DNA of 30,374 nucleotides from IMG/VR virus record IMGVR_UViG_3300021142_000126, positions 1 to 30,374 of that record; one strand, 5' to 3'. How positions within the stretch are numbered: the first letter of the stretch is position 1; every line of letters begins with the position of its first letter. A program made the translations under genes and the position numbers. Positions 6,384 through 30,374 of this stretch are shown piece by piece. The DNA comes from a virus. The notes under the pieces were generated by a model that worked only from the letters and a program-made list of their open reading frames with translations, did not search any database and was not told the origin of the DNA.

Positions 6384-6391
6384 TATTTATT
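6384..6391 (-). promoter_or_regulatory. Variant late promoter upstream of the core genes
   Basis: AATAAATA on the minus strand, one base from TATAAATA, overlapping the portal stop codon. The following bases (AATATATTAAAA) match those downstream of the exact boxes at the gp18 and gp22 promoters, which supports a weaker member of the same set. Confidence 0.4.
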
Positions 6392-14239: not shown

Positions 14240-15262
14240 TTAATAATATGTTGTTGTTATAGTATTCGTAGTCCAATAAGAATTAGCTGATGCGGTATTT
14301 GGATTCGGTGTTGTGATTGCTGTAAATTCTATAGTGTTATTTGCTGCGTAAGAATTGGGTATATGAACTGCTAATGAATCTACTCCTATAATTGGTTGAT
14401 TCAATTTAAACCCTCCACAAACATTTCCTATAAAAATTGTGTTTGATTTATTATTCCAACTAGTCACTTTTCCAGTAGCATAAGCATTATCTAAATTTAA
14501 TCCTTGATAAACTAATTCTTGATTAAAATAATCTCCGTTACCATTTGGTAACATGACAAATGCTGAATTTAAACCGCTTGAACAACAAGCAGAATCAGCA
14601 TCTAAAGAATTTGATCCACTATTAAGGTTTACTTGTACATTATTGATAATTGGAGATTCTTTAATTGCTCCAAATATAAATCCTTTTACTGTAAATCCTA
14701 AAGTCCACATTACTGTACGTACTTCTGAATCAAACAATCCTTCTGAATCTATTATTTGTTGTACTGAGTTTAATGTGATTGGAACAGTTTTAGTTATTCC
14801 CATTTCAGGAATAAGATTTAATCTTAAAGAATAATCAGGACAAAAATATGGTAAAATATGTTCTAATATTTGATTTCCGTCATCTATTGTTCTTGTGTAT
14901 ATTGTTACACCGAAATCAAAATCATATGGTACTGGATTATATTGTGCTAATACCGTATCTGCACTACCAGAATTACCAAAATTCATATTATTAGTATTCA
15001 ATTTTCTGGACGAATCATATTTAAATCCAGTTAATTGATATGATATTCTAGGTAATGCTAGTTGCACTTTTTTATTAAGATTTATATCTCCCTGTAACCG
15101 TTTTACCCATTTCTCTTTATCTGCAAAATCTACTGGAACTATAAATCTTTGATTTTCGCTTCCGTCTTCGTTGTATCTTATTATAGTGATGTTAGAAAAT
15201 AAACTAGCAAATGCAGTCGTAATCTTTCTAATAACTTTAAAGTATTGTGTGTTAGATGACAT
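14240..15262 (-). CDS. 15: Proximal tail sheath stabiliser gp15, C-terminally extended
   Basis: 340 residues; T4 gp15 is 272. In T4 the hexamer caps the tail and joins it to the neck. Matching blocks: QYFKVIRKITTAFASLFSNI and RYNEDGSENQRFIVPVDFA, VQLALPRISYQLTGFKYD followed by SSRKLNT, YNPVPYDFDFGVTIYTR, ILEHILPYFCPDYSL, IPEMGITKTVPITLNSV and VMWTLGFTVKGFIFG (to about residue 200). After the normal end there is an additional segment; residues 240-297 resemble a segment of gp14 (188-246). The ATG at 15262 lies inside the end of the homing endonuclease gene (11-base overlap) and lacks a good ribosome-binding site, so translation may depend on readthrough from that gene. Confidence 0.9.
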   Translation of the reverse strand: MSSNTQYFKVIRKITTAFASLFSNITIIRYNEDGSENQRFIVPVDFADKEKWVKRLQGDINLNKKVQLALPRISYQLTGFKYDSSRKLNTNNMNFGNSGSADTVLAQYNPVPYDFDFGVTIYTRTIDDGNQILEHILPYFCPDYSLRLNLIPEMGITKTVPITLNSVQQIIDSEGLFDSEVRTVMWTLGFTVKGFIFGAIKESPIINNVQVNLNSGSNSLDADSACCSSGLNSAFVMLPNGNGDYFNQELVYQGLNLDNAYATGKVTSWNNKSNTIFIGNVCGGFKLNQPIIGVDSLAVHIPNSYAANNTIEFTAITTPNPNTASANSYWTTNTITTTYY

Positions 15263-16313
15263 TTTCTGTATACTTCGTATATCCTTTATAGGAATCTAAT
15301 TTACCATTAATTAACTTACCTAATCTGTTTTTATTTAACCCATTTTCTTTTGAAAAAAGAGATATATTGTAAATATCTATAATTTCTCCGTTTGGGTTTA
15401 TAACTTTACATTCTTTTTTATATTTGTATTTGTAATCGTAAGGAGTATTTATGTTTTTATATCCTTTATGACTTATCCTTTCTCCTCTCAATACTTTATG
15501 TATGTTTTGCGAAGATAGACTATTTTCTTTACAGAATTTAGGAATATCTGTAATTTCAATTATTTCTCCGTTAGAATTCATTAAATGTACTGGAGGATTT
15601 TTATAAATTTTTTCTTTTTTCGGTTTCGGTATATTGAAAATTGTATTTGGATTTTGTTTTCGATAACCTTTGTACGTTTCAATTTTTTCATTGTTTAATG
15701 AAACCATACTCCCGTTATTTAAATCATTCTCTTTACAATACAGCGATAGATTAGAAATTGTAATATTGTTACCGTTTGGATCTATAAAATGATATTTTTT
15801 ATATTTTTCTTTCCCGTTTACTGCAGTATATCCTTTATATGATATCATTTTTCCGTAAAATAATGAATTCATATTTCCTTGGCTAAGATTATTAATTCTA
15901 CAATATTCTGTAAGATTAATGATAGTTATTTTATTTCCTTCTGGATTTATAAATTGGTATTCTTTAGCTTGTTTATTTGGATTTTTGTTTTTATATCCGT
16001 TTAAACCATCTCCTCCAAGAGTCATATTATATCCGTTAGACTCTTCGAAATGAATAAATGATTTGTGCTCTCTTATAAAAAATGACTCCATTTCTTTAAC
16101 GTGGGCTACGTTTAGCGTTTGGTAAATTATATCAAATGAAAAATTATTCCAACCATATTTCCTTATTGCTTTATATAAAACATAATTTTGTTTTTTACTA
16201 TTATTTTTATGATCCAATAATCTTTTATTTGGATTTTTAGAAATCCCAACGTAAACTTTTGAGTTTATGATATTCTTTATGACATAAACGCTATAAATTA
16301 TTTCAGGTATCAT
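15252..16313 (-). CDS. GIY-YIG homing endonuclease (Seg-like) between genes 14 and 15
   Basis: 353 residues. Catalytic domain 1-100: IYSVYVIKN (Tyr10), KVYVGISKNPNKRLLDH (Tyr21, Arg31) and KEMESFFI (Glu76), which line up with the I-TevI Tyr, Arg27 and Glu75 positions, then NGYNMTLGGDG. The rest is a DNA-binding tail of four repeats of about 55 residues, each with the pattern F/V-I-x-P-x-G, an I-x-I strand, a YC-x-x-N-x-L helix-turn-helix and ending in YKGY or HKGY. All catalytic residues seem intact. The ATG overlaps the gp14 stop by one base (TAATG) and the end overlaps gp15 by 11 bases, so it fits between two essential genes without disrupting them. Freestanding enzymes of this kind usually cut the homologous site of relatives that lack the insert. 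Confidence 0.88.
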   Translation of the reverse strand: MIPEIIYSVYVIKNIINSKVYVGISKNPNKRLLDHKNNSKKQNYVLYKAIRKYGWNNFSFDIIYQTLNVAHVKEMESFFIREHKSFIHFEESNGYNMTLGGDGLNGYKNKNPNKQAKEYQFINPEGNKITIINLTEYCRINNLSQGNMNSLFYGKMISYKGYTAVNGKEKYKKYHFIDPNGNNITISNLSLYCKENDLNNGSMVSLNNEKIETYKGYRKQNPNTIFNIPKPKKEKIYKNPPVHLMNSNGEIIEITDIPKFCKENSLSSQNIHKVLRGERISHKGYKNINTPYDYKYKYKKECKVINPNGEIIDIYNISLFSKENGLNKNRLGKLINGKLDSYKGYTKYTENVI

Positions 16314-17193: not shown

Positions 17194-17943
17194 TTAACCG
17201 CAGAAAAACGCTGGTGGTTCAGAATATAAATCTTGGAATTCCGATTCTATACGTTCAATTTCATTAACTGCGTCATCATATATTTGTTGTCCGTTAAGAG
17301 TTAATCCTCCAGGAAGATTTAAATCACCTTTATATTTAATTAGATTTTCTCCATATTGACGTTTAATATATGCAGTAGCTAGTTCTTTTAAAACACGATC
17401 ATTCCATACGTCTGTGAATTGGTCTGGATCAATTACTTGATATGCTTCTAATACAATTACTGTTCCTGATGGAAGTTCGTCTGTGCCCCAAGCAGCATCA
17501 ATATAAACTCTATTCTGATGGCGTTCAAACCTAATAGGAACTTGTCCTTGGAACATTTGCTCTAATAAACTGATATGTTGCATGGACATATAGTACGAGG
17601 TCATTTGAGTTGATGTCAAATCCCAAAGATTATTCAATACTAATTGATATCTAATGTCCCACATATAGCTTTGTGTCATCAAAGCGTTAATTGGTAATAA
17701 TCGAGTAACGCCAACGATTGAATCGGGTACAGTAATATATCTATTTGTTACATCGTCATCGTTTACCGTGTATTGATAGTATACTGACGAGACTGCATCG
17801 TAATGATAATCTGTGTAAAATAGAATCGCGTCACTGATGCGATCTTCTAGTTGCGTGTCTTCGACTGGAATTTCTATGATAGGAAATCCTAATCTTCTTA
17901 AACAATATTGTTTTAATTGCTCTCTTGACGTTACTCTAGACAT
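17194..17943 (-). CDS. 13: Neck (head completion) protein gp13
   Basis: 249 residues; T4 gp13 is 309. It acts with gp14 to complete the packaged head. Recognised: N-terminal SREQLKQYCLRRLGFPIIEI, then EDRISDAILFYTDYHYD (a helical region typical of gp13), ITVPDSIVGVTRLLPIN, and LKELATAYIKRQYGENLIKY with NLPGGLTLNGQQIYDDA near the end. The C-terminal PPAFFCG closely resembles the usual PPxFFxG ending. The start codon follows the stop of the 56-residue protein by five bases and has no clear ribosome-binding site, so it probably depends on translation of that gene. Confidence 0.92.
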   Translation of the reverse strand: MSRVTSREQLKQYCLRRLGFPIIEIPVEDTQLEDRISDAILFYTDYHYDAVSSVYYQYTVNDDDVTNRYITVPDSIVGVTRLLPINALMTQSYMWDIRYQLVLNNLWDLTSTQMTSYYMSMQHISLLEQMFQGQVPIRFERHQNRVYIDAAWGTDELPSGTVIVLEAYQVIDPDQFTDVWNDRVLKELATAYIKRQYGENLIKYKGDLNLPGGLTLNGQQIYDDAVNEIERIESEFQDLYSEPPAFFCG

Positions 17944-17948
17944 ATAAA

Positions 17949-18119
17949 TTAACTTTTTGGTATTTGTTGATCTGCTTGTTTGTGAATTTCATCAATAATT
18001 GATCTACTAAATTTATGAGGAATTTCATTTAACGCTGCTAATATTGTATTCAGTTGTGATACTGGTAACACTAGCGTAATTGAAATTTCTTCTTGTTGTG
18101 TTTGCGCTTGTTCTGTCAT
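17949..18119 (-). CDS. 56-residue leader protein of the neck operon
   Basis: An ATG at 18119-18117 opens 56 codons ending in TAA at 17951-17949. It has the best ribosome-binding site of the unit (AAGGAG, seven bases upstream) and is the first gene after the late promoter at 18172-18179. The sequence reads MTEQAQTQQEEISITLVLPV, then SQLNTILAALNEIPHKFSR and SIIDEIHKQADQQIPKS: an acidic start, a strand, and two amphipathic helices. Similar short proteins (strand, then N-x-IL-x-AL-x-x-IP and a final helix with Gln) recur in phage genomes, but no function is known to me. It may be a structural accessory or may serve to load ribosomes for gp13. Confidence 0.7.
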   Translation of the reverse strand: MTEQAQTQQEEISITLVLPVSQLNTILAALNEIPHKFSRSIIDEIHKQADQQIPKS

Positions 18120-18130
18120 ATCAGTCTCCT

Positions 18131-18136
18131 TATAAT
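18131..18136 (+). promoter_or_regulatory. Candidate sigma-70 -10 box before the epimerase gene
   Basis: TATAAT on the plus strand, 45 bases before the epimerase ATG. A -35 match 17 bases upstream is poor (TTGTTC against TTGACA). There is no exact plus-strand late box in this gap, so an early-type promoter is the only candidate for this reversed gene. Confidence 0.25.
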
Positions 18137-18171
18137 GTAAATGATAATTAAGTATATATAGTTTTATTTAG

Positions 18172-18179
18172 TATTTATA
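18172..18179 (-). promoter_or_regulatory. T4-type late promoter for the neck-terminase operon
   Basis: Exact TATAAATA on the minus strand, 53 bases before the 56-residue gene and directly abutting the start codon of the divergent epimerase. It would drive the 56-residue gene, gp13, gp14, the homing endonuclease, gp15, gp16 and gp17, since no other exact box lies in the gene gaps down to 11660. Confidence 0.75.
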
Positions 18180-18180
18180 T

Positions 18181-19017
18181 ATGATAATAGTCACTGGCGC
18201 GTCTGGATTTATTGGTTCTAATCTTGTGAGAAGATTATATGAAATTGGTGAGCGTAATATTATATGTGTAGATTATGTTAATAGACATGAATATTATAAG
18301 GATATTCCTGGAATATTTACTCCTCCTGATGATTTCTACAATAATACAGAAACGTATAAAAACATAAAAGCCGTTTTCCACGAAGGTGCAATATCTTCTA
18401 CTACTGAAACGGACGCCAATAAATTATTTAATTATAATACAAATTGTACTTGGAAACTTATTTACTATTGCAGAGATAATCAAATACCGTTACAATATGC
18501 TTCGTCTGCTTCTGTTTATGGAAACCCAAGTATTGAAGAGTGGCATAATCCTAATAAACCTACAAATCCTCTTAATCAATATGCAACTACCAAGATGCAA
18601 ATAGATTATGTTGCTGGTTGCGTGATTAATAGTAAAAGACCTCCTGTACTATTACAAGGTATGCGATATTTTAACGTATATGGGCCAAACGAAGATCACA
18701 AAGGTGATCAAGCAAGCCCATATTCAAAATTTGCGAAACAATTAAAAGAAACAGGTAGGATCAAATTATTTGAAGGCTCTAAAGATTTCTACAGAGATTT
18801 TATTTCAGTTGATGATGTGATAAGCAAAAAGTTAGATATTTTTTATAATAGATCGTCAGGAATATATGACGTAGGTACTGGAACTCCAAAATCGTTTTAT
18901 GACGTTGCTATTGAAGTAGGTGGTTCTGATAGCGTTATTGACTGGGTGCCAATGCCAGATAATTTAAAAAAACACTATCAGAAATATTCCTGTGCTATTG
19001 ATCATTCAAATTTGTAA
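18181..19017 (+). CDS. hldD: HldD-like ADP-heptose 6-epimerase, C-terminally shortened
   Basis: 278 residues; bacterial ADP-L-glycero-D-manno-heptose 6-epimerases are about 310. Extended short-chain dehydrogenase fold: NAD loop TGASGFIGSN (5-14), the HldD-specific FHEGAISSTTETD (66-78), YASSASVYGN with the catalytic Ser region (106-115), Tyr134-x3-Lys138 (QYATTKMQ), MRYFNVYGPNEDHKGDQAS, KLFEGSKDFYRDFISVDDV and VPMPDNLKKHYQ. The protein stops at a point equivalent to roughly 30 residues before the normal C-terminus, and its last 16 bases overlap the converging gene. It is on the opposite strand to its neighbours. The ATG has no Shine-Dalgarno sequence within 15 bases. Epimerisation of ADP-heptose for LPS or capsule is the family role; the substrate here is not proven. 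Confidence 0.88.
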   Translation: MIIVTGASGFIGSNLVRRLYEIGERNIICVDYVNRHEYYKDIPGIFTPPDDFYNNTETYKNIKAVFHEGAISSTTETDANKLFNYNTNCTWKLIYYCRDNQIPLQYASSASVYGNPSIEEWHNPNKPTNPLNQYATTKMQIDYVAGCVINSKRPPVLLQGMRYFNVYGPNEDHKGDQASPYSKFAKQLKETGRIKLFEGSKDFYRDFISVDDVISKKLDIFYNRSSGIYDVGTGTPKSFYDVAIEVGGSDSVIDWVPMPDNLKKHYQKYSCAIDHSNL

Positions 19018-19721
19018 ATCCCATTATCTGCGGTATATCCTTCCACATGAATTGTTTCCATTTCAAAAATTTTATCTCTTGGCGTTAATTGCCAATGGGA
19101 CATTTCTAAATTACACATAGGTTCACCGATACTTGAAACCATTACTTTGAATATATCCTTTAGTAATACTTTATAATCGTCAAATATTGTGCTACAAAAT
19201 GACCATAATCTAGTTTCAAAATACACAACTCTTTCTCTATGGGTTACGAAGTTATCTTTACTTACGTCCCATTGATTGATTTTGTGCGCAAACTTACCTA
19301 TTAAATTTGGATTATCATAATATGATATATCAAAGGAATCTGCTAGAAAATATCTACCTGTTATTTTAAATACCCTTTTCCCCAATAGATCATTTTCTTC
19401 AATAAGTTTTAATGCCTCTTGCATAATATATGCTTCGCCTAGACCTTTGGAGCCAATATCATTGACAAATAAAGTGAAAATATTATGATCAAGTTGACGA
19501 AAAACATCAACTTGATCTTCTATGGTATTTCTCCATTCATCTTTTAATGGGATGGTTGAGTTATCAATAAAGATTATCTTTGAATTTGGTACTTTTTCCT
19601 TTATTGATTCTATAGTTTTTAACGTTTCTTTATATCTGTTATCTTGGTCAAATACATTAACCGCACTCATTTTAGGTGCATTAATACAAGAAGTGATTAT
19701 GAAAGTGTAAAAATCATTCAT
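19002..19721 (-). CDS. Putative glycosyltransferase-like protein
   Basis: 239 residues with a GT-A-like flavour but no certain family. Residues 1-100: FYTFIITSCINAP, then KVPNSKIIFIDNSTIPL, the kind of strand-Asp-Asn pattern seen near the nucleotide-sugar site of GT-A enzymes, and NDIGSKGLGEAYIMQEAL. The middle has RVFKITGRYFLADSFD, a motif common in phage and bacterial sugar-transfer proteins, followed by a Trp-rich stretch (RLWSFCSTIFDDY) and the end HVEGYTADNGIYKF. It overlaps the preceding TPR-GT9 gene by four bases (ATGA) and converges on the epimerase with a 16-base overlap. Context among GT9, methyltransferase and sulfotransferase genes supports a role in glycan building. Confidence 0.5.
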   Translation of the reverse strand: MNDFYTFIITSCINAPKMSAVNVFDQDNRYKETLKTIESIKEKVPNSKIIFIDNSTIPLKDEWRNTIEDQVDVFRQLDHNIFTLFVNDIGSKGLGEAYIMQEALKLIEENDLLGKRVFKITGRYFLADSFDISYYDNPNLIGKFAHKINQWDVSKDNFVTHRERVVYFETRLWSFCSTIFDDYKVLLKDIFKVMVSSIGEPMCNLEMSHWQLTPRDKIFEMETIHVEGYTADNGIYKFE

Positions 19722-21133
19722 GGTAAAAAGTTATTCTGTATAAATGCTTTTGCTTCCAACATAGGTTCATCCCAAACTTTAGGTTTAACTTGCCTAAAGA
19801 ATCTAAAATTATCTCCATACCAAGGACTGGTATGTGGTGGTCTACCTTCTAACGTTGGAGTTAGGTACGTGAAATATGCCGCAATAGGAACGAATACTAC
19901 AGTTTTTGTTCCTACAGCACCTGCCAAATGCACAACAGATGTACAAGTAGAAATAACAATGGCTAGATTTTCTATTAATGCTAAAGTATCGTCAAATGAA
20001 TTGATTTGATCAGCAACATCAATAAGTTCAGAACACGCTCTTGCTTCTTCTTCGCCATCGCCTTTCTGTAATGAATAATATTCTACATCATATCCTTGGA
20101 AAGTATCGTGTAGGAAATTCATCATATTGTCTACTTCAATATGGCGATATAATAGTTGATTGTTTCTTTTATTGCCAATAAACCGAACGCCAACTTTGAG
20201 TTTTTTACGTTCTTTTAACCAACTCCATTTATCTCTTGCTTCATCTGAAGCCCATAGATAGTTTTCAGTCAACATTTGTTCCGGTTTCATATTAAGATAT
20301 AGAGGAACTTCAAACGCAAAACACCATAATGGATCTGGATCTTTAACGTCTCTCCAATCTGTTACTGAAGTGTATCCGCAACGGTTGAAAATATCGACAA
20401 TATCCTGATTCGCATTACAATAAACTGGATTAAATCCTGCTTCTTTTAATTTATTCCAATAAGAGATTGCAATGAATGAATCTCCAAATCCACCACCGGA
20501 CATGTAGAATATTAAGGTTCTACCAGGATATAATCCACCGCTCCAATACTTTAATGGAATTTCCGCATTATTAAACCAAAGATCCAGTTTTTTTACATTA
20601 ATAAGAAATCCACCAAGACCTTTTAAGAAATGTCCTGCCTCCATTTGATATGTTGCTCTGTTAAAATCTACTATAGTTCTGTGTCTTTCGCTGAGTTCTA
20701 TTTCTCGTTCTTTCAATTCGTTTAATATTTTTTCTGCTGGTTCTTTTTGACCATTTAAGAAATATGAAAATACCATTTCCAGTAGAGTATCTGGATTATT
20801 TGGATTTATGGCAATATTCTGTTTAGAATAGAATAATGATTTAACTGGTTCATTAAAATTGTTATACATTTTACCTAGATTTGCGCGAACATTGTATTTC
20901 TGTTCATTTGTTTCGCACATGTCTAATGTTTTTAATGTAAATTCTTCTGCTTTATCGTAATTTCTAACATCATAATAAAGTTTGGAAATACAATTAACTT
21001 GTTCTATATGCATTGCTGCTGGAGCAAAGGCATCGATGACTTGTTCTGCTAAATCTTCGTATTGTCCTTTAATTAATTGTTTCACAACAAGTACCAAAGG
21101 ATCGTCTAAACCGTAAGTATCATTCTGGTCCAT
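19718..21133 (-). CDS. TPR protein fused to a GT9-like glycosyltransferase
   Basis: 471 residues. Residues about 30-165 form tetratricopeptide-like helical pairs (YDVRNYDKAEEFTLKTLD, NLGKMYNNFNEPVKSLFYS, FSYFLNGQKEPAEKILNEL). Residues about 200-471 form a GT-B fold resembling heptosyltransferase-type GT9: YMSGGGFGDSFIAISYW (210-226, first glycine-rich loop), KVGVRFIGNKRN, and STCTSVVHLAGAVGTKTVV (395-413), the donor-site pattern with His402, then PWYGDNFRFFRQ. The start has AAGGAG. It shares four bases with the next gene and begins two bases after the methyltransferase stop, so the unit is one operon. TPR-GT fusions usually act on protein or surface glycans; the acceptor is unknown here. Confidence 0.75.
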   Translation of the reverse strand: MDQNDTYGLDDPLVLVVKQLIKGQYEDLAEQVIDAFAPAAMHIEQVNCISKLYYDVRNYDKAEEFTLKTLDMCETNEQKYNVRANLGKMYNNFNEPVKSLFYSKQNIAINPNNPDTLLEMVFSYFLNGQKEPAEKILNELKEREIELSERHRTIVDFNRATYQMEAGHFLKGLGGFLINVKKLDLWFNNAEIPLKYWSGGLYPGRTLIFYMSGGGFGDSFIAISYWNKLKEAGFNPVYCNANQDIVDIFNRCGYTSVTDWRDVKDPDPLWCFAFEVPLYLNMKPEQMLTENYLWASDEARDKWSWLKERKKLKVGVRFIGNKRNNQLLYRHIEVDNMMNFLHDTFQGYDVEYYSLQKGDGEEEARACSELIDVADQINSFDDTLALIENLAIVISTCTSVVHLAGAVGTKTVVFVPIAAYFTYLTPTLEGRPPHTSPWYGDNFRFFRQVKPKVWDEPMLEAKAFIQNNFLP

Positions 21134-21135
21134 TA

Positions 21136-21729
21136 TTACTCCTTAATTGCTACCATTTTCATTTTAGTATTCATACACACATTGGTTGCTTCTCTTAATA
21201 ATCTCTGGATTGCAAAATCTTCTTCTGCTGTTACATTACCTTCTTCTTTTCTTTTAAAGAAATCTTCCAACATAGGAACATAGAATTGATCATATTCAAA
21301 TTCGTAATGAATCATATCAAAGTCGATATCAAACTGTAATCCCATTCCGGAACTTGAATTGATAGTTTCGATATGATCTCTATTGAATTTCTTTCCAAAC
21401 ATTAACATACCATTAACAGTAATAGGACGTTTGTGTGTAGGATCACCGTAATATACTTCATGGAAATGATGAGGTACAATAATATCTAAGATACATCCAT
21501 GTTCTGCAACACGATATAATTCTTTCATTAAAGGAATAAACCCATCACCAATGTGTTCAAAAATGTGATGCGCTTTAATTTCTTCTACTGTATTATCGTC
21601 AAATGGTAAACGAATATTTACATCATCTAGATTTACAACATAATCAGGATTAACTAATTCATCATAATCCAAACTAAGAAAATCGTCAAACTTCTTTAAC
21701 CCACCGCCCAAATTTATTTTAAGTCCCAT
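21136..21729 (-). CDS. SAM-dependent methyltransferase (class I-like)
   Basis: 197 residues from the ATG at 21729. A longer frame back to a TTG at 21756 exists, but motif I (INLGGG, residues 5-10) follows directly after the ATG, so the shorter start is preferred. Class I features: INLGGG for SAM binding, FLSLDYDE, NLDDVNIRLPFDDNTVEEI, then HHIFEHIGDGFIPLMKELYRV (motif IV-like region) and GCILDIIVPHHFHEVYYGD. This pattern is that of small methyltransferases in sugar and surface-polysaccharide clusters. It overlaps the upstream GT9-like gene by 16 bases. A target on a sugar is inferred from context only. Confidence 0.7.
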   Translation of the reverse strand: MGLKINLGGGLKKFDDFLSLDYDELVNPDYVVNLDDVNIRLPFDDNTVEEIKAHHIFEHIGDGFIPLMKELYRVAEHGCILDIIVPHHFHEVYYGDPTHKRPITVNGMLMFGKKFNRDHIETINSSSGMGLQFDIDFDMIHYEFEYDQFYVPMLEDFFKRKEEGNVTAEEDFAIQRLLREATNVCMNTKMKMVAIKE

Positions 21730-22442
21730 GTCGCATTTCCCATAAAATCTAACCAAAACGTTCTAAAATTGCCCTTATTTTCGTTCAAATAATAAAACGG
21801 TATTGTGTGTATTAAGCATCTATTCGAATATATATAGTTCAATTCTGGTCCGTTGTCTAGAGCAGAAGCAAAATGTGACACGCCTGTATCACCGCCATAA
21901 AATACCATAGACGTTTTTATATGATGTATATTTTCTATAAAATCTGTTGATATCTCAAAATCGGAATAATCAAATAGTCCTTCTGGCGGTTCATCCTTAC
22001 AACAAATAACTTTTCTATGATGAGGATATTTTTTTCTACATTCGTCTAGAATACTATTCAAACAATCAATACTCCAATTTCTTTGATTATTATATTCAGC
22101 ATCATATAACGGGAAAACAACTACCTTATACTCCATATTACCAATTGGATTTTTAATAATTACATGATCGCCAATAATTGATCTAAAATCCCATACAGAA
22201 ACGTTATAAAAAGGTAATTCTAGAAATCCTTCTTCTTTTGAAAAATAATCTGTATTTTCACAAAGATAATTATGAAATTTGTGAATGTAGTCGTCATCAT
22301 TTAGTACGTTTTCGGGGATATAGAATTGAATATTTGGATTTTTAGTTTTTCTCAAATATTCAACAATATTACAGATAGCAATCAAATCTCCACATCTAGT
22401 ACCCATGGTACCAAATGTGGATTTAGTTATATTGTAAATCAC
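21714..22442 (-). CDS. GT9-like glycosyltransferase
   Basis: 242 residues. The start is GTG at 22442, chosen because AAGGAG stands about five bases upstream. The N-terminal half begins [20 protein letters not shown], resembling the first nucleotide-binding half of a GT-B fold. The second half has [30 protein letters not shown], and [18 protein letters not shown] with Gly184-Asp185 and His190, the GT9/heptosyltransferase-type donor motif, similar to that of the TPR-GT9 protein. It is short for the family (about 320-350 residues), so one lobe may be reduced. It is the first gene of the minus-strand sugar operon, with a late promoter box 90 bases upstream. Confidence 0.65.
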
Positions 22443-22459
22443 TTCAGCTCCTTTAATTA

Positions 22460-22467
22460 TATAAATA
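22460..22467 (+). promoter_or_regulatory. T4-type late promoter for the homing endonuclease
   Basis: Exact TATAAATA on the plus strand, 60 bases before the ATG at 22527, which has an AGGAGT ribosome-binding site. It makes this homing endonuclease an independently transcribed late gene. Confidence 0.68.
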
Positions 22468-22470
22468 GAT

Positions 22471-22501
22471 ATAGGTCACGGAATTACGAGTTCCCACCTA
22501 T
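22471..22501. other. Inverted repeat between divergent late promoters
   Basis: ATAGGT at 22471-22476 pairs with ACCTAT at 22496-22501, and GGAA at 22480-22483 with TTCC at 22491-22494, separated by small internal loops. It would fold in the 5' leaders of both divergent transcripts. The role is unknown. Confidence 0.4.
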
Positions 22502-22526
22502 TCTAATACTAAACAGGAGTACCAGC

Positions 22527-23138
22527 ATGGATATTTATAACACCAATTCAACACAAAATTATTACGTTTATGCATATATCAGAAACAAGGATTCTGAAAC
22601 AGCTAAAAAGGGAACTCCATATTATATAGGTAAAGGTAAAAACAAAAGAGCGTGGAATAAACATACATTTCCTATACCAAAAAATAATTATCAGATAGTT
22701 ATATTGGAAACTAATTTAACTGAAATTGGATCTATTGCCTTGGAAAGAAGAATGATTTCTTGGTGGGGCAGAAAGGATCTTGGAACTGGAATTCTTATTA
22801 ATTTGACGGATGGCGGTGAAGGTTCTTCTGGAAGAGTATTTAAACATTCTGAAGAATCTAAACGGAAGACTTCTAATTCTATGAAAGGAAAGAATATGAA
22901 AGAGTCTACTAAAAAATTAGTAAGTAAAATTCATTCTGGTAAAATATTATCTACCGAGACGAAAAATAAAATAAGTTCGGCAAATAAAGGAAGAAAATTA
23001 TCTGATGAAACCAGACAAAAGATGAAAAATAAAAAATTGTCTGATGAAACCAAGAAAAAGATTTCTGAATCTCTGAAGGGAAAATCAAGGTCTGATGAAA
23101 CTAAGAAAAAAATCAGCGATTCAAAAAAGAATCGCTGA
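22527..23138 (+). CDS. GIY-YIG homing endonuclease with NUMOD3 repeats
   Basis: 203 residues. The frame is open back to 22326, but the ATG at 22527 has AGGAG nine bases upstream, is preceded by a late promoter, and the domain begins just after it; the earlier part is antisense to the GT9-like gene. Catalytic domain: [25 protein letters not shown] (Tyr32/33, Arg41) and [12 protein letters not shown] (Glu73), then [12 protein letters not shown]. Residues about 106-203 contain a series of NUMOD3-type DNA-binding repeats ([58 protein letters not shown]). It is on the plus strand within a minus-strand operon, typical of an independently acquired T4-type Seg enzyme. Its last codons form a hairpin serving the opposite gene. 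Confidence 0.88.
22532..22539 (-). promoter_or_regulatory. T4-type late promoter for the sugar operon
   Basis: Exact TATAAATA on the minus strand, inside codons 2-5 of the plus-strand endonuclease and 90 bases before the GTG start of the GT9-like gene. The long leader is unusual, but it is the only exact box for this operon. Confidence 0.5.
23106..23138 (-). terminator. Intrinsic terminator of the sulfotransferase transcript
   Basis: A perfect 10-base-pair stem (23129-23138 with 23113-23122) with a six-base loop, followed on the minus strand by seven U (23112-23106). It begins 12 bases after the sulfotransferase stop. The same bases encode the last codons and stop of the plus-strand endonuclease. 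In the plus direction there is no U-run after the stem. Confidence 0.82.
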
Positions 23139-23149
23139 ATTCATAATCC

Positions 23150-23923
23150 TTAACGCCATACCTCCATTCCGCGAACTTGATTCCAGATATCTGGAGGAAT
23201 GACTGTATCTCTTTGGATAAACGATACTTTCTTTCTGGTAGTATGTAGACCAGGAAGTTGTACATCTTCATCAAATTCGTCGTATGATGCTCCCACAGAA
23301 TCGAAATCATGATCGAAATAGGGTTCTCCAATAAAGTTATACAGAGTCTTCATCATAAATTCTGGATTCTTGGCTAACTTATCATACTCGATAATCATAA
23401 TAGATGATTTATGTTCTGATGTGATTGCTTGTTTTACTGCATTATACGCAAATCCAAGAGTTCTTCCTGGGTTCATTAACGTTTCGCAACGAGTATAAAC
23501 GTTAACGTTTTCATCAACAGAAAACATTGATGTAAACGAATACGGATTCTTTCTATAAAGAGTTTCAAAAGAATCCAATACCCAACCAATATCACGAACA
23601 CAAAGAATTAATTTTGCGTCAGGATAAAGATCCTTTACGGTTGGAAGTAATAATCCCCAACCTCTATTGGTATTAAACGCAACTTCTTTCGATGGATCAT
23701 CATAATAATTTTCAAATAGCCCATTAATTAATTTCTTGCGTTTTTCTGGAGGACATTCAAACCGATAACCTCCCTGTGAAGAAGATTCTTGAATGATTGC
23801 TCTAGTGAATCTTGCTAAAGGTCCAGAAATGGATGCTTCGAATCTTGGATTCTGTTTTAGAATTGTGGAAAGAAGGGTGGTCCCACTTCTAGGAAGACCA
23901 CCGATAAAGTGATATTTTTTCAT
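23150..23923 (-). CDS. PAPS-dependent sulfotransferase
   Basis: 257 residues of the sulfotransferase family, which moves sulfate from PAPS to a sugar, lipid or tyrosine. The 5'-phosphosulfate loop GLPRSGTTLLSTIL is at 9-22 and the 3'-phosphate block CVRDIGWVLDSF at 108-119 with Arg110 and Ser118; both are intact. A later segment, IEYDKLAKNPEFMMKTLYNF and IGEPYFDHDF, is also typical of the family's C-terminal part. The ATG at 23923 has TTAGGAG. No exact late box lies in the 47-base gap upstream, so it is probably read from the fibre genes. Its placement between sugar genes and fibre genes suggests a sulfated glycan on the virion or host surface, but the acceptor cannot be told from sequence. 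Confidence 0.87.
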   Translation of the reverse strand: MKKYHFIGGLPRSGTTLLSTILKQNPRFEASISGPLARFTRAIIQESSSQGGYRFECPPEKRKKLINGLFENYYDDPSKEVAFNTNRGWGLLLPTVKDLYPDAKLILCVRDIGWVLDSFETLYRKNPYSFTSMFSVDENVNVYTRCETLMNPGRTLGFAYNAVKQAITSEHKSSIMIIEYDKLAKNPEFMMKTLYNFIGEPYFDHDFDSVGASYDEFDEDVQLPGLHTTRKKVSFIQRDTVIPPDIWNQVRGMEVWR

Positions 23924-23970: not shown

Positions 23971-25167
23971 TTATGGAAGGTCTGGCGAGGATATCGCGCC
24001 TTTTGAAGAAACCTGTTTCCAGTTAGTTAACGATCCTACTTGAATCGGTGAAGAATAATGTATACCGTAAGTATTATTCCCTAATTGCCCATATGTATTA
24101 AAACCCCATGTCCATAAAGTACCATCAGTTTTGATTGCTGAAACGTTAAAGTACCCACAAGCGACTTGTTTCCAATTATTTAACGTTCCTATTTGGATTG
24201 GAGAAGAATAATTTATTCCTGACGTTCCGTTACCTAAAATACCATAATTTCCGCCACCAAATCCCCATAAAGTTCCGTCGGTTTTAATTGCAAACGTTGT
24301 CCACACATCACAAGCAACTTGTTTCCAATTAGTTAATGAACCAACTTGTATTGGGGAGGAATATGCTGACGTAGATCCATTACCCAATTGGCCATATCCA
24401 TCGCTTCCCCACGTCCATAAAGTGCCGTCAGTTTTAACCGCTGCTGTATAAGATATTGATGAATTCGTTCCGCAAGCAACTTGTTTCCAATTAGTTAATG
24501 CTCCTATTTGGATTGGTGATGAATACCGTACAGTGGTTCCGTTACCTAATTGACCATATCCATCGCTTCCCCACGTCCATAAAGTACCATCGGTTTTGAT
24601 TGCTGCTGTGTGTTTATACCCGCAAGCAACTTGTTTCCAATTAGTTAATGATCCTACTTGTATCGGAGAAGAATATTTGTTAGTTGTTCCATTACCCAAC
24701 TGACCGGCATTGTTATAACCACATACCCATAAAGTACCATCGGTTTTAATTGCCGCAGTACTTTGTGATCCACAAGCAACTTGTTTCCAATTAGTTAATG
24801 TTCCTATTTGTATAGGTGACGAATACTGCGTTGTTGTTGCGTTACCTAATTGTCCATTACCGTTATACCCGCACGCCCATAAAGTACCGTCAGTTTTAAC
24901 TGATGTTAAAAAGGACATATTAGGATTAACATTACTAATAAACACTTGTTTCCAATTGGTTAATGCGCCCACTTGGATTGGAGAAGAATAATATACTGTT
25001 GTCCCATTACCCAATTGGCCAAAATTATTAAATCCCCAAGTAAACAATCCAGCATTCAAAAACAGTTCCTTACGAACAAACATATCTGCAATATCAACGA
25101 CAGTAGATGAATATGTTCCATCTGAATTTAATATTGGAAACTTATAACCTGCTGGAAACTGCGCCAT
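23971..25167 (-). CDS. Seven-bladed RCC1-type propeller fibre protein
   Basis: 398 residues. A short N-terminal cap (1-40, [18 protein letters not shown] then [18 protein letters not shown]) is followed by seven RCC1-type blades of about 50 residues, each reading roughly LWTWGYNxxGQLGNG, then [19 protein letters not shown] and AIKTDGT. Seven blades is the closed RCC1/BLIP-II-type propeller number. Blades differ mainly in the loop after QLGNG and in the 5-10 residues after the ACG motif. No enzyme motif, membrane segment or signal peptide is seen. The ATG overlaps the stop of the upstream cupin-like gene by one base. A receptor-contacting tail fibre or tip role is inferred from the position beside an S74 fibre gene. 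Confidence 0.8.
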
Positions 25168-25673
25168 TACTCTTCCTTAATTTCTTGATTTAATAGAAAT
25201 ACTTGAATTAATTTGTTTTCTTCCAATGAATGCCAAAACCAAGGTCTAATGAAAACAAAGTTGTTTTTCTTAATATTTATAGAATTAACCGTAGTCCATT
25301 TAGATTTATCAAAGGAGTTATTCAATACAAAATCTTCTATATTTTGTACGTTAAAGAATGTCTTTATTCCTTCTTGTTCATGAATATGTAAAGTAGTATC
25401 TTCTAATGCAACAATACATTTCCATAATGCATGTTGATAAAAACTTTCAAATAGAATACCAGAGTTTGGTTTTCTGAATACTCCTGTATTTGGTTGAATT
25501 TCTACAGGTTCAAGTACAATAGATTTGAACATATTAGTTAATGGTTCTGGAATATAGGTGAAGTCTTTGATTTCTTCTCCATATAAATTCTGTTCAAATT
25601 CCATTGTTGAAATGATATTGTGTAACGAATCAATATCAGAATAAAAAGAGTCGCAAATAATAATGTTTTTCAT
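25167..25673 (-). CDS. Cupin-like (double-stranded beta helix) protein
   Basis: 168 residues, tentatively a cupin-fold protein. Residues 83-101 ([19 protein letters not shown]) contain an H-x-H-x3-G-like first cupin motif with His96 and His98; residues 144-153 ([10 protein letters not shown]) resemble the second cupin motif P-x3-H-x3-N with His148. Phage and bacterial cupins include sugar isomerases and oxygenases, but no specific member is recognised, and an Fe/2-oxoglutarate oxygenase is an alternative. It lies between two propeller genes, four bases after one and sharing one base with the next, so it is cotranscribed. Ribosome-binding is poor, suggesting coupling. Confidence 0.5.
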
Positions 25674-25677
25674 ATTT

Positions 25678-27984
25678 TTAAATGTATCCGTCTGCTATTG
25701 TAATCGTACAATGATTTACACCAGCAACTTGTTTCCAATTGGTTAATGCTCCTACTTGTATTGGAGAGGAATAATTTATACTTGTTAAATTGCCTAATGT
25801 ACCATAATTATTATACCCCCATGCCCATAGAGTACCATCGGTTTTAATTGCAGCTGTATGATAATATCCGCCAGTAACTTGTTTCCAATTGGTTAATGCT
25901 CCTACTTGGATTGGAGAGGAATATGATATATTTACTGTTCCATTACCTAATTGGCCAGTACTATTTAGTCCCCATGTCCATAAAGTGCCATCTGTTTTAA
26001 TTGCAGTTAAGTGTCCAAATCCACAAGCAACTTGTTTCCAATTAGTTAATGCACCTACTTGGATTGGCGAGGAATAACCAATGCCAGATGTTCCATTACC
26101 TAATTGTCCATAAATATTATATCCACATGTCCATAATGTACCATCAGTTTTAATTGCTGCAATATTTTCTCCTCCGGAAGAAACTTGTTTCCAATTAGTT
26201 AATGATCCTACTTGAATCGGTGAAGAATAGTACATTCCTTGTGAATTATTACCAAAAATACCAAAAATACCCCATCCCCATCCCCATAAAGTACCATCTG
26301 TTTTAATTGCTAGAGTATACCAAGATCCCGCAGAAACTTGTTTCCAATTAGTTAATGCACCAACTTGAATTGGTGAAGAATAGTACATTGCTTGTGAATT
26401 ATTACCTAATTGTCCAGAAGTTTTTGATACTGAATAAGCGAAATTATTTCCCCATGTCCATAAAGTACCATCTGTTTTAATTGCTGCTGCATGAGAGAAT
26501 CCAGCAGAAACTTGTTTCCAATTAGTTAATGCACCAACTTGAATTGGTGAAGAATAATATACAGTTGATCCGTTACCCAATTGACCATATTTATTATATC
26601 CGCACATCCATAATTGACCAAGATTATTAATTGCTGCCAATGTTGATCCAGAATAACAAGAAGAAACTTGTTTCCAATTAGTTAATGCACCAACTTGAAT
26701 TGGGGATGATACTGGCGATATACTTCCAATACCTAATTCACCATAAGAATCATGTCCCCAAGAGAATAATCCGGGACTTGTTCTATTGCCTATCTGACTT
26801 GCAATATTAGGATAAACATCAAGTAAATATGATTTACTGGTATATCTCTGACCCAAATCTTGGTTGTAATTGTAGGTTTGGATTGCTAATATATAATAGG
26901 AAGATCCTGTAGCAACTTGATTCCAAGTAGTTAATGATCCTACTTGAATTGGTGAAGAATAATATACTCCTGTCCCATTACCTAATAATCCAGAACCATT
27001 ATATCCCCATGTCCATAAAGTGCCATCAGTTTTAATAGCTGCTGTGTGAAGTGTTCCACATTGAACCTGTTTCCAGGTGGTTAATGTTCCTACTTGGATT
27101 GGTGAATAATAATTAATTCCGTTTGTTCCATTGCCCAATTGGCCATTAACATTAAATCCCCATGTCCATAAAGTGCCATCTGTTTTAATAGCTGCTGTGT
27201 GAGATGATCCTCCAGCAACTTGTTTCCAATTGGTTAATGATCCTATTTGAATCGGTGAGGAATAACTGGTGTTCGTTCCATTACCTAATTGCCCTTGGCT
27301 ATTATATCCCCATGTCCACAAAGTACCATCAGTCTTAATTGCTGCTGTGTGAGATGATCCTCCAGCAACTTGGTTCCAATTAGTCAATGATCCTACTTGG
27401 ATAGGTGAGGAATAACTTACTGTTGTTCCATTACCTAATTGACCACCATTACTTCCCCATGTCCATAAAGTACCATCTGTTTTAATAGCTGCTGTAAAAT
27501 ATGTTCCAAAAGCAACTTGGTTCCAATTAGTCAATGATCCTACTTGGATAGGTGAGGAATAACTTACTGTTGTTCCATTACCTAATTGACCATAATTATT
27601 ATAACCACATGTCCACAGAGTACCATCTGTTTTAATAGCCGATATAGAATCACCAGCACATGCCACTTTACTCCAATTGGTTAATGATCCAACTTGGATT
27701 GGTGAGGAATAATTTGCTGTTGTTCCATTACCTAATTGTCCAGAAAGATTACCTCCCCATGTCCACAGAGTACCATCTGTTTTAATAGCTGATGCTTGAA
27801 AATATCCACAAGAAACCTGGGTCCAATTGGTTAATGATCCAATTTGTATGGGTGAAGAATAATATACTACTGTTCCATTACCTAATTGACCATAATTGTT
27901 TTGCCCACATGTCCATAAAGTATTGGTCTGATATGCGGTATTGAAACCAGTATATGGTTGATATGGTCCAAAATTACTAGGCAT
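25678..27984 (-). CDS. Tandem double RCC1 propeller protein (7+7 blades)
   Basis: 768 residues. Seven blades (about 20-365) are followed by a non-repeat linker (about 370-420: YNQDLGQRYTSKSYLLDVYP, then SQIGNRTSPGLFSWG), then seven more blades to the end. The linker resembles the N-terminal caps of the two neighbouring propeller genes (IDLDDEYITDQWLVDQFVG and [18 protein letters not shown]), so the gene looks like a fusion of two formerly separate propeller genes. The second half carries longer loops in some blades (NNSQAMYY, NNSQGMYY). The start has AGAGGAA. The role is probably in fibre assembly or receptor contact, by context. Confidence 0.8.
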   Translation of the reverse strand: MPSNFGPYQPYTGFNTAYQTNTLWTCGQNNYGQLGNGTVVYYSSPIQIGSLTNWTQVSCGYFQASAIKTDGTLWTWGGNLSGQLGNGTTANYSSPIQVGSLTNWSKVACAGDSISAIKTDGTLWTCGYNNYGQLGNGTTVSYSSPIQVGSLTNWNQVAFGTYFTAAIKTDGTLWTWGSNGGQLGNGTTVSYSSPIQVGSLTNWNQVAGGSSHTAAIKTDGTLWTWGYNSQGQLGNGTNTSYSSPIQIGSLTNWKQVAGGSSHTAAIKTDGTLWTWGFNVNGQLGNGTNGINYYSPIQVGTLTTWKQVQCGTLHTAAIKTDGTLWTWGYNGSGLLGNGTGVYYSSPIQVGSLTTWNQVATGSSYYILAIQTYNYNQDLGQRYTSKSYLLDVYPNIASQIGNRTSPGLFSWGHDSYGELGIGSISPVSSPIQVGALTNWKQVSSCYSGSTLAAINNLGQLWMCGYNKYGQLGNGSTVYYSSPIQVGALTNWKQVSAGFSHAAAIKTDGTLWTWGNNFAYSVSKTSGQLGNNSQAMYYSSPIQVGALTNWKQVSAGSWYTLAIKTDGTLWGWGWGIFGIFGNNSQGMYYSSPIQVGSLTNWKQVSSGGENIAAIKTDGTLWTCGYNIYGQLGNGTSGIGYSSPIQVGALTNWKQVACGFGHLTAIKTDGTLWTWGLNSTGQLGNGTVNISYSSPIQVGALTNWKQVTGGYYHTAAIKTDGTLWAWGYNNYGTLGNLTSINYSSPIQVGALTNWKQVAGVNHCTITIADGYI

Positions 27985-27986
27985 TA

Positions 27987-28652
27987 TTATTCCTCTTTAA
28001 CTGGAAACATACTATTATAAATGTTCTTTAATTCTTCAACAGTAGATGCATTATTTACTTGATCATCAATATTCTGTTCCCACGCAAATTGGGATTGTAC
28101 ATATGCAACACCAGCACCAACACAAATACCTAAATCAGATTTAGTTAAATTCAACCAACATTCAGGGAATTTCCATCCAATAACATCAGAATCTCCCATA
28201 GTAGAATATGCTTGAACAAAGATTGCACGACCATCTCTTGATGTATCTATTGTTACTGTTGTGCCTTGAACTATTGTAATTGTTCCTGCAATTTCTTTCG
28301 TATATCTAAGTGATGCAGCAACAGTTTTTATGGTATTTTGTATATCAATGATATTTCTATCAGTTTTTTGATATGTTGCAGTTGCTTCGTTATTATCGTA
28401 GGTATAGAATGGACCAATAGGTTGTTCAAAATTAGGATCAATATCAGGAGAAACTATATTGGTAAGCGGAAAGATTTCATAACCTCCACCAACATCAATA
28501 TATCCAGTATCAATTGGAGCAACTTGATATTTAAAAGAGATTTCTTCATTCTCATATAAATCATCAAATTCTGACTGAATATAACGTTGTTTCCAATCAA
28601 ATGGACCTAGAATTACTTGTTCTTGATTTAATACTAAAAGATATTGTGCCAT
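27987..28652 (-). CDS. DUF4376-like tail-fibre-associated protein
   Basis: 221 residues. The C-terminal half, with ITIVQGTTVTIDTSRDGRAI, FVQAYSTMGDSD, GWKFPECWLNLTKSDLGICV and VAYVQSQFAWEQNIDDQVN, followed by a short helix (TVEELKNIYNSM), matches the pattern of a domain of unknown function (DUF4376) frequent in phage tail-fibre regions, often with assembly chaperones. The N-terminal half (YLLVLNQEQVILGPFDWKQR, GGGYEIFPLTNIVSPDIDP) looks like a beta domain similar to those of fibre proteins. The ATG at 28652 has AAGGAC. It lies between propeller genes and ends two bases before the next start. It might be a fibre assembly factor or a structural piece. Confidence 0.6.
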   Translation of the reverse strand: MAQYLLVLNQEQVILGPFDWKQRYIQSEFDDLYENEEISFKYQVAPIDTGYIDVGGGYEIFPLTNIVSPDIDPNFEQPIGPFYTYDNNEATATYQKTDRNIIDIQNTIKTVAASLRYTKEIAGTITIVQGTTVTIDTSRDGRAIFVQAYSTMGDSDVIGWKFPECWLNLTKSDLGICVGAGVAYVQSQFAWEQNIDDQVNNASTVEELKNIYNSMFPVKEE

Positions 28653-28661
28653 GATTTGTCC

Positions 28662-29843
28662 TTATGTTATATCTGCGAATTTGATTCCGAGTGTGTTATA
28701 TTGTCCACACGCAACTTGTTTCCAATTAGTTAATGATCCTACTTGTATCGGAGAAGAATATTTGTTAGTTGTTCCATTACCCAGTTGTCCTTTACCATTA
28801 TAACCACAACTCCATATTGTACCATCAGTTTTAGTCGCCAGAAAGAAATTTATGCCACAAGAAACTTGTTTCCAATTAGTTAATGTTCCTATTTGAATCG
28901 GTGATGATACGCTACCAATAGTACCTTGACCCAACTGACCAAGGTTGCCGGTCCCCCATGTCCATAAAGTACCATCAGTTTTAATTGCGGCGGAATGTAC
29001 CATTCCACTTGAAATTTGTTTCCAGTTAGTTAGTGATCCAATTTGAATTGGTGAAGAATAACCTCCTGGCCATGATATCGATGCGCTGTTGCCTAAGGTT
29101 CCTCCTGCGTCATATCCACATGCCCATAGAGTTCCATCTGTTTTAATACCAAACCAATGATAATATCCACTGTAAACTTGTTTCCAATTTGTTAATGATC
29201 CTACTTGGATAGGCGATGAATATTTGATATTTGTTCCGTTTCCTAGGCACCCAGTAGTATTATACCCACATGTCCATAAAGTACCGTCGGTTTTAATTGC
29301 TGCTGTGAATGAATTTCCGCATGATATTTGTTTCCAATTAGTTAATGATCCTACTTGGATTGGAGAGGAATAATATACTGTTGTTCCATTACCCAATTGT
29401 CCATTGTTATTATATCCCCACGTCCATAAAGTACCATCTGTTTTAATTGCTGCCGTATGCTGTCCACCAGAAACTTGACTCCAATTTGTTAATGATCCTA
29501 CTTGGATTGGAGAAGAATAATATACTGTTGTTCCATTACCTAGTTGACCATACCTATTATAACCACATGTCCATAATGTGCCATCAGTTTTAATTGCTGC
29601 TGAATGGGTAAATCCACAAGCAACTTGTTTCCAATTCGTTAATGATCCAATTTGGATTGGTGATGAATAATTAGTCGTGTTTCCATTACCTAAGAATCCA
29701 AACCCGTTATATCCGCAAGCAAATAAATTATTACCAACAAACTGATCAACTAACCATTGATCTGTGATATACTCATCATCCAGATCAATACTTCCAAATA
29801 TAGGATCATCTTTCCAATAGTTACTTGGATTACCAGTAGCCAT
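28662..29843 (-). CDS. Seven-bladed RCC1-type propeller fibre protein
   Basis: 393 residues: an N-terminal cap (1-37, PSNYWKDDPIFGSIDLDDE then YITDQWLVDQFVGNN) and seven RCC1-type blades. Framework as in the other two propeller genes; loop variants include TTNYSS, TTVYYSS, NIKYSS, a longer WPGGYSS and IGSVSS. The last blade closes with GQYNTLGIKFADIT. The ATG overlaps the stop of the S74 fibre gene by one base (TAATG), so it is translated directly behind it. Its cap may anchor it to a fibre or baseplate. Confidence 0.8.
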   Translation of the reverse strand: MATGNPSNYWKDDPIFGSIDLDDEYITDQWLVDQFVGNNLFACGYNGFGFLGNGNTTNYSSPIQIGSLTNWKQVACGFTHSAAIKTDGTLWTCGYNRYGQLGNGTTVYYSSPIQVGSLTNWSQVSGGQHTAAIKTDGTLWTWGYNNNGQLGNGTTVYYSSPIQVGSLTNWKQISCGNSFTAAIKTDGTLWTCGYNTTGCLGNGTNIKYSSPIQVGSLTNWKQVYSGYYHWFGIKTDGTLWACGYDAGGTLGNSASISWPGGYSSPIQIGSLTNWKQISSGMVHSAAIKTDGTLWTWGTGNLGQLGQGTIGSVSSPIQIGTLTNWKQVSCGINFFLATKTDGTIWSCGYNGKGQLGNGTTNKYSSPIQVGSLTNWKQVACGQYNTLGIKFADIT

Positions 29844-30374
29844 TACTTATTCTCCAACTTCTCTATTCTATCTGCTAATTCTTTATTTGATTCTATTAGA
29901 TATGCAATTAAACCAGCATAGTTAACACTCTTTATTCCATCATTCTCAGAAACTAACCAAGGTAATATCTTTTCTAATTGTTGTGCAATAGTACCAGCAG
30001 ATTTTTGTCCATTATCTTTCCAATCGAATTCAAACCCGCCAATCTGTTTAATTGTATCCGTTGCATTAATAATAGGAACAATATTTGTTTTCTGCGTTTC
30101 ATCAGATAATGATTGGAATATAGTTGCATATAAAGTTCCAATACTTGGATTATAATATAATTTCGTTGATGATGTATTAGCAGCAGTATATGCGCCAGAT
30201 GTAGCAGAACCTAACATTATATATCTGGTGGCATTTGTTGTTGTATCATCAGTAATAGTTGCGCCAGCAGAAATGGTGGTTGATCCGCCAAGAGAAACTA
30301 ATGATCCATTAATAGTAACTGATGAATTAGCTAATCCGGAATTTGGAATGTTGGTTAATCCAGTACCAGAACCA
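29843..30374 (-). CDS. Tail fibre with S74-type intramolecular chaperone, 3' part
   Basis: The frame is open to the right edge, so the 5' part lies outside; the ATG at 30217 is internal. The visible N-terminal side is repetitive Ser/Thr/Gly/Asn (GLTNIPNSGLANSSVTINGS and similar), typical of a fibre shaft. The C-terminal part is a peptidase S74 / endosialidase chaperone: SLSDETQKTNIVPIINATD, IKQIGGFEFDWKD, AGTIAQQLEKILPWLV, VNYAGLIAYLIESNKEL. The Ser-Asp-x3-Lys dyad (Ser at 30104-30106, Lys at 30089-30091) is where self-cleavage normally occurs, releasing an 87-residue chaperone after trimer folding. The end is a coiled-coil helix (ELADRIEKLEN). Confidence 0.85.
   Translation of the reverse strand, partial: GSGTGLTNIPNSGLANSSVTINGSLVSLGGSTTISAGATITDDTTTNATRYIMLGSATSGAYTAANTSSTKLYYNPSIGTLYATIFQSLSDETQKTNIVPIINATDTIKQIGGFEFDWKDNGQKSAGTIAQQLEKILPWLVSENDGIKSVNYAGLIAYLIESNKELADRIEKLENK

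Follow-up and report, generated by a model that had tools for sequence, protein, structure and literature searches.

What does a phage gain from three genes built of RCC1-type repeats, and why do they lie beside a tail fibre gene? The window, by which we mean the whole 30,374-nucleotide stretch of viral DNA analysed here, is part of a T4-like phage: it encodes the major capsid protein, scaffold, protease, portal, sheath, terminase, neck protein and tail sheath stabiliser. The capsid protein is approximately 60–63% identical to those of Stenotrophomonas, Methylophilales, Pelagibacter and Synechococcus phages, and a megablast search of the window against phages returned no matches. The three RCC1 genes occupy positions 23971–29843, all on the minus strand, and carry 7, 14 and 7 repeats; we refer to them as genes A, B and C.

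The original prediction, made from the sequence alone, described 28 RCC1 blades arranged as 7, 7+7 and 7, and this arrangement is borne out. All 28 repeats score above the Pfam cut-off for RCC1 (PF00415), and in gene B the step from blade 7 to blade 8 is 83 residues, as against 49–58 elsewhere, a spacing that fits 7+7 and suggests, as far as sequence can, that the product forms two separate seven-bladed rings. Since the longest exact repeat in the region is just 82 nt, misassembly is an unlikely source of the blade number here. Structure prediction had been proposed as a check for a closed propeller; the AlphaFold2 model of the gene A product (pLDDT 89.8, pTM 0.86) has seven times four strands, and we confidently predict from it a closed seven-bladed propeller of the RCC1 type. 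With Foldseek, the nearest solved folds to this model are UVR8, HERC2, RPGR and RCC1, with TM-scores of 0.81–0.89 to solved RCC1-like domains. The model of the gene B product, built on an alignment of only four sequences, was unusable (pLDDT 47.5). Kinship with the chromatin regulator RCC1 is limited to the fold, Ran and histones not being expected in a phage-infected bacterium. The framework codons of the window's blades have diverged silently, which indicates that selection on the protein maintains the framework and that its constancy does not merely reflect a recent expansion. The products had also been called fibre proteins; they are not long fibre proteins but propellers that bear short tags at the N terminus.

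The features of the locus are collected in Table 1. The stop codon of the S74 gene and the start of gene A overlap by one base. The prediction of three adjacent fibre genes is right about the neighbouring S74 fibre, but the RCC1 genes do not adjoin one another, a DUF4376 ORF and a small cupin-like ORF interrupting them. The product of the DUF4376 gene is probably fibre related; Pfam and PHROG searches with the small, 168-residue ORF gave no matches.

Table 1. Features of the RCC1 locus and its flanks, in window coordinates
Feature	Coordinates	Strand	Basis
S74 (endosialidase-chaperone) tail fibre gene, C-terminal part	29843..30373	-	PF13884, E 1.3e-12; many PHROG tail fibre/baseplate matches; cut by window end
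RCC1 gene A, N-terminal tag and one seven-bladed propeller, 393 aa	28662..29843	-	7 RCC1 repeats; AlphaFold2; Foldseek
Class-A tag (proposed docking element), residues 1-39 of gene A, contains DLDDEYITDQWLVDQFVGN	29727..29843	-	39/39 residues identical in L021, where the propeller is 67% identical
DUF4376 gene, flanked by RCC1 genes A and B	27987..28652	-	PF14301, E 6e-7; phrog_10508 tail fiber protein
RCC1 gene B, 768 aa, 14 blades interpreted as two propellers of seven	25678..27984	-	14 RCC1 repeats; gap between blades 7 and 8
Class-B tag, begins QDLGQRYTSKSYLLDVYPNIAS, internal, between the two propellers of gene B	26770..26868	-	Comparison with L016, L022 and L021
Small ORF between B and C, 168 aa, cupin/2OG-oxygenase-like by eye only	25167..25673	-	Recurs at the same place in relatives
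RCC1 gene C, N-terminal tag and seven blades, 398 aa	23971..25167	-	7 RCC1 repeats; final blade without the usual end
Class-C tag, residues 1-40 of gene C	25048..25167	-	Kept in L013, L016, L021 and L023
Sulfotransferase gene, closes the block in relatives	23150..23923	-	PF13469, E 1e-16; recurrence

A scan of viral contigs yielded 68 RCC1 loci, and the order S74, RCC1 A, DUF4376, RCC1 B, (small ORF), RCC1 C, sulfotransferase is found in dozens of contigs. All of the close relatives were assembled from metagenomes, where repeats may be put together wrongly. The predicted association with an S74 fibre gene recurs among them: that gene immediately precedes gene A in 27 relatives, sharing one base with it in 15, in loci that were themselves collected through an RCC1 search. 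Every one of 38 distinct DUF4376 genes is flanked on both sides by RCC1 genes, a figure partly built in by the same manner of collection. Photosystem reaction-centre genes in 2 of 12 large relatives indicate that some of these phages probably infect cyanobacteria; none were seen in the contigs of the window's closest relatives. Nearly the same order is also present in a cultured Synechococcus phage, S-SRM01 (NC_070963, Kyanoviridae), whose gp334–gp345 run S74 fibre, RCC1, DUF4376, RCC1 and, later, RCC1 with a sulfotransferase. A tblastn search of phages with the DUF4376 protein gave no matches at 1e-5, and the S-SRM01 copy was found by a profile-type search. S-SRM01 differs from the window in having 6, 7 and 7 blades and other genes between B and C. 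Its RCC1 genes carry no annotation beyond regulator of chromosome condensation, and the part of the S-SRM01 paper available to us does not discuss them. In the window, as in S-SRM01, a cluster of epimerase, methyltransferase-like, TPR and sulfotransferase genes (17900–23923) adjoins the RCC1 block; its products perhaps modify surface sugars or fibre proteins.

If these propellers bind something, the pattern of variation along the blade should indicate where. Aligned, the 28 units show a nearly fixed framework and three variable windows: the WG-Y-N-xx-G segment, the stretch following GNGT and the stretch following ACG. Two variable windows had been predicted. Their clustering is upheld, the lag-1 autocorrelation of column entropy being 0.46 (permutation p 0.0004); their number is not, the first two of the three lying in one loop. 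In the gene A model that loop connects strands 1 and 2, and the third window falls in the loop connecting strands 3 and 4. Column entropy averages 1.52 in loop 1-2 and 2.53 in loop 3-4; for loops 2-3 and 4-1 the averages are 0.47 and 0.68. In an up-and-down blade the strand 1-2 and 3-4 loops share one face, and the variable windows would therefore lie together on one face of the propeller, as deduced from strand order and not from model coordinates. Variation is accordingly not even along the blade, in agreement with the prediction that an alignment of the units would reveal concentrated loop changes. Close relatives diverge in the same way: of the codons in the two variable-face loops, 48% and 59% encode a different amino acid, compared with 5% of those in loop 4-1. 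In nearly all pairs of relatives, loops of blades with the same index are no more alike than loops of blades with different indices; that is, there is no positional orthology.

How this variation arises is best seen in pairs of relatives that are otherwise almost the same. Between L046 and L048, the DNA is 98–100% identical upstream of gene A and over most of gene C, whereas the A propeller is only 67–79% and the B propeller 79–89% identical, behind tags that are 97% identical in protein. In L034 and L043 the propeller is likewise replaced behind a fixed tag. Identical codons at conserved residues amount to 74% in the A propeller versus 96% in the tag for the first pair, and to 62% versus 89% for the second; since silent sites differ too, these segments were replaced, not mutated in place. 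Gene A of L016 and that of L020 are separated by five base changes, all nonsynonymous and all within blade 5.

Whole propellers also appear to come and go. A multiple of seven blades (7, 14, 21 or 28) is held by 122 of 131 distinct complete RCC1 ORFs, and gene B taken by itself ranges from 7 blades (L016 and L022) through 14 (the window) to 21 (L013 and L021). The class-B tag, internal in the window, is near the N terminus in single-propeller relatives (L016, L022 and L021 were compared), and the extra gene B propellers of the window and L021 are placed after the opening residues of the protein (MPSNFGPYQPYTGF) and before this tag, a position which implies that whole propellers were inserted near the N terminus. 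The exceptions have 4, 6, 8, 20, 27 or 30 detected blades; some of these counts reflect overlooked blades, the end of a contig or a possibly collapsed assembly. We did not count as blade loss the 6 versus 7 blades of gene C in L016 and L023, where an exact 150-bp tandem repeat with a 215-nt exact match may reflect assembly collapse. Two class-C ORFs (L034:13524–15095 and L044:13500–14960) stand outside the rule of seven with 8 detected blades and a gap of 93–96 residues, which may hold a further degenerate blade or an inserted domain.

At a finer scale, exact tracts of at least 60 nt are shared by 88 of 12,716 pairs of blades within genomes and by 22 of 473,875 pairs between genomes, making them about 150-fold commoner within a genome. 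Such sharing was seen in 29 of 44 genomes, and 38 of the 88 tracts join different genes. Among the window's own blades, a Sawyer-type gene-conversion test restricted to silent sites was not significant (8 columns, p 0.83); the same test on all polymorphic codons (p 0.002) is confounded by the clustering of variable codons, and we do not use it. Recombination between repeats had been predicted as the way in which the surface is changed. Differing blade copy numbers and shared exact tracts speak for it, but the main exchange seen between close relatives is the replacement of a whole propeller behind a fixed tag, together with whole-propeller steps in copy number (7, 14, 21 or 28 blades), and not the shuffling of single blades. 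Reverse transcriptases above the cut-off were found in none of 12 relatives (their contigs are fragments, so that this absence is not final), and G012 contains one degenerate reverse transcriptase fragment with stops. Taken at the level of sequence, these comparisons point to diversification by cassette exchange and not by a retroelement.

Three lines of evidence tie the propellers to the fibre: the gene order, ORFs in relatives in which 7 or 28 RCC1 blades are fused to collagen repeats and to an S74 domain at the C terminus, and an RCC1 region in the unrelated podovirus PollyC, where it is part of a protein encoded at the tail-fibre position (a T7 tail-fibre N-terminal match in that protein is below the Pfam cut-off). 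Fusions and synteny place propellers in the fibre without proving contact with a receptor, and they can also be cited for a reading in which the RCC1 proteins are structural parts or spacers, not touching a receptor, whose loops vary through tolerance to change. We consider this improbable: the variation is confined to one face, the five changes separating gene A of L016 and L020 are all nonsynonymous and in one blade, and drift does not explain the replacement of whole propellers between nearly identical tags and flanks.

RCC1 proteins are also found in virions. Mass spectrometry detected three (phrog_4219) in W70 virions (PMC11370258) and one in the virion of GAP32 (PMC5259590). The W70 genes sit among small genes away from the structural cluster, which shows that virion RCC1 proteins need not be encoded beside fibres. 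In fEgEco12 and Ecwhy_1, jumbo coliphages of one species, 2 of the 7 products with less than 50% identity are annotated as chromosome condensation regulators (PMC13070987), a divergence that fits a role in host contact. The presence of RCC1 proteins in purified W70 and GAP32 virions, together with the ORFs that fuse them to fibre domains, makes it quite unlikely that the proteins act in the infected cell or at its surface, for example by blocking other phages or inhibiting a host protein. It can be said for such a function that the three genes encode stand-alone proteins and that their neighbours encode sugar-, sulfo- and methyl-transfer enzymes acting on metabolites or surfaces. BLIP-II-type propellers, moreover, inhibit enzymes.

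It seems likely to us that the locus encodes receptor-binding heads that can be exchanged, that owe their diversity to cassette exchange and recombination between repeats, and that work with the S74-type fibre of a T4-like phage. We infer that, in this lineage, the heads would be carried on the virion, dock through their tags, bind receptors and affect host range. Each head would be a seven-bladed RCC1 propeller behind a short class-specific tag (A, B or C) that probably anchors it to a constant site on the fibre or baseplate. These tags are kept within a class and differ between classes, and when models of tags A and B were used to look for tagged proteins other than RCC1, only RCC1 ORFs matched. 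Framework, strands and one face of the propeller are conserved, and it is probably through the differing loops on the opposite face that the host surface is contacted. Diversity would have three sources: (i) replacement of a whole propeller behind a fixed tag; (ii) insertion or loss of whole propellers, in steps of seven blades; and (iii) exchange of short tracts between repeats of one genome. A bolder reading, which we rate as somewhat less likely than not, is a multi-head form of host recognition in T4-like phages, in which heads of three tag classes are swapped, added or lost whole and the genome's own repeats serve as a donor pool; one phage would then display several binding specificities, changed by homologous recombination without a reverse transcriptase.

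Such heads bear comparison with several known systems. The gene for gp38, the fibre-tip adhesin of T-even phages, directly follows the distal fibre gene, and hypervariable segments on a constant scaffold set host range. Gene A likewise lies directly downstream of a fibre gene and has hypervariable segments on a constant scaffold. It differs in that the scaffold is an RCC1 propeller and not a glycine-rich fold, there are several heads and not one, and the fibre is of the S74 type. No protein of the window matches gp38 (PF05268), and by analogy the RCC1 heads may work like gp38 without being members of its family. Among the fusions, just one (L074:6904–8892) joins a class-A propeller to a region that weakly matches gp38, at an E value of 1.5e-4 that is below the cut-off; that region may be merely glycine-rich. 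Targets of diversity-generating retroelements, such as phage tentaclins (PMC10743442), are similar in that receptor-binding proteins are diversified in a targeted manner on a stable scaffold; they differ from the window's lineage, which has no reverse transcriptase above the cut-off in 12 relatives and in which silent sites differ too. Surface RCC1 proteins of honeybee-gut Bifidobacterium have about seven repeats per domain, two to four domains per protein, tandem genes and strong strain diversity (PMC4449606), but they are bacterial cell-wall proteins with LPxTG anchors, not phage proteins.

The virion RCC1 proteins of Vequintavirinae and Rak2-like phages (W70_237–239 and GAP32 gp001; phrog_4219) are approximately 40 kDa in size, and W70 encodes several side by side. 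The GAP32 protein matches the gene A model in fold; sequence identity is only about 24%, the W70 genes are away from fibre genes, and their authors read the proteins as DNA-packing. That the window's RCC1 proteins organise DNA and are packed with the genome, as proposed for phAPEC6 (PMC7247149) and W70 (PMC11370258), as might be gathered from the placing of RCC1 families under DNA metabolism in PHROGs and from a fold shared with the nucleosome binder RCC1, is very improbable: the suspicion of condensation or packing in phAPEC6 and W70 rests on the family name, many propellers of the same fold (e.g., UVR8 and HERC2) bind no DNA, and fusion to collagen and S74 fibre domains, a constant position beside the S74 gene and strong diversification of one face would be unexpected of a DNA-packing protein.

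The remark that no phage system of this form had been described was too strong, since S-SRM01 has nearly the same layout, already annotated, and RCC1 proteins had been found in other virions by mass spectrometry. Phages with RCC1 proteins were known before, as were hypervariable fibre adhesins; class-specific tags, whole-propeller swapping and a one-face variable surface have, to our knowledge, not been described together. In the literature searched, the coverage of which was incomplete, we found no description of RCC1 propellers as phage receptor-binding heads. Mentions of RCC1 in papers on Ostreococcus viruses are strain codes, as far as the accessible portions of those papers go, and those in RcGTA papers are probably gene numbers.

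Regulator of chromosome condensation is the label widely given to phage RCC1 proteins, which are counted among DNA-metabolism genes. On the evidence presented here, many such proteins of cyanophages and of other T4-like phages from aquatic settings probably belong with the tail fibre instead, and their variable, probably host-binding face is located. Host recognition would become testable in phages whose receptors are not known, and the loops of one face could serve as a sequence mark linking phages to host strains in metagenomes. The locus would also provide a case of diversification through cassette exchange instead of a retroelement.

Several other features of the window deserve mention. 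The portal protein gene (6387–9182, minus strand; 931 aa) contains an intein: Intein_splicing is above the cut-off at residues 333–696, with an HNH endonuclease inside. The large terminase gene (11660–13783, minus strand; 707 aa) has an Intein_splicing match of 22 bits, below the cut-off, located between the N-terminal and the C-terminal domain; this may be a second intein that has diverged. A gene of the nicotinate phosphoribosyltransferase family (NAD salvage) lies at 1–843 on the plus strand, open at the window end. Likely homing endonucleases with a NUMOD3 motif, of the HNH/GIY-YIG type by PHROGs, are encoded at 15252–16313 (minus strand) and at 22326–23138 (plus strand), the latter on the strand opposite to its neighbours.
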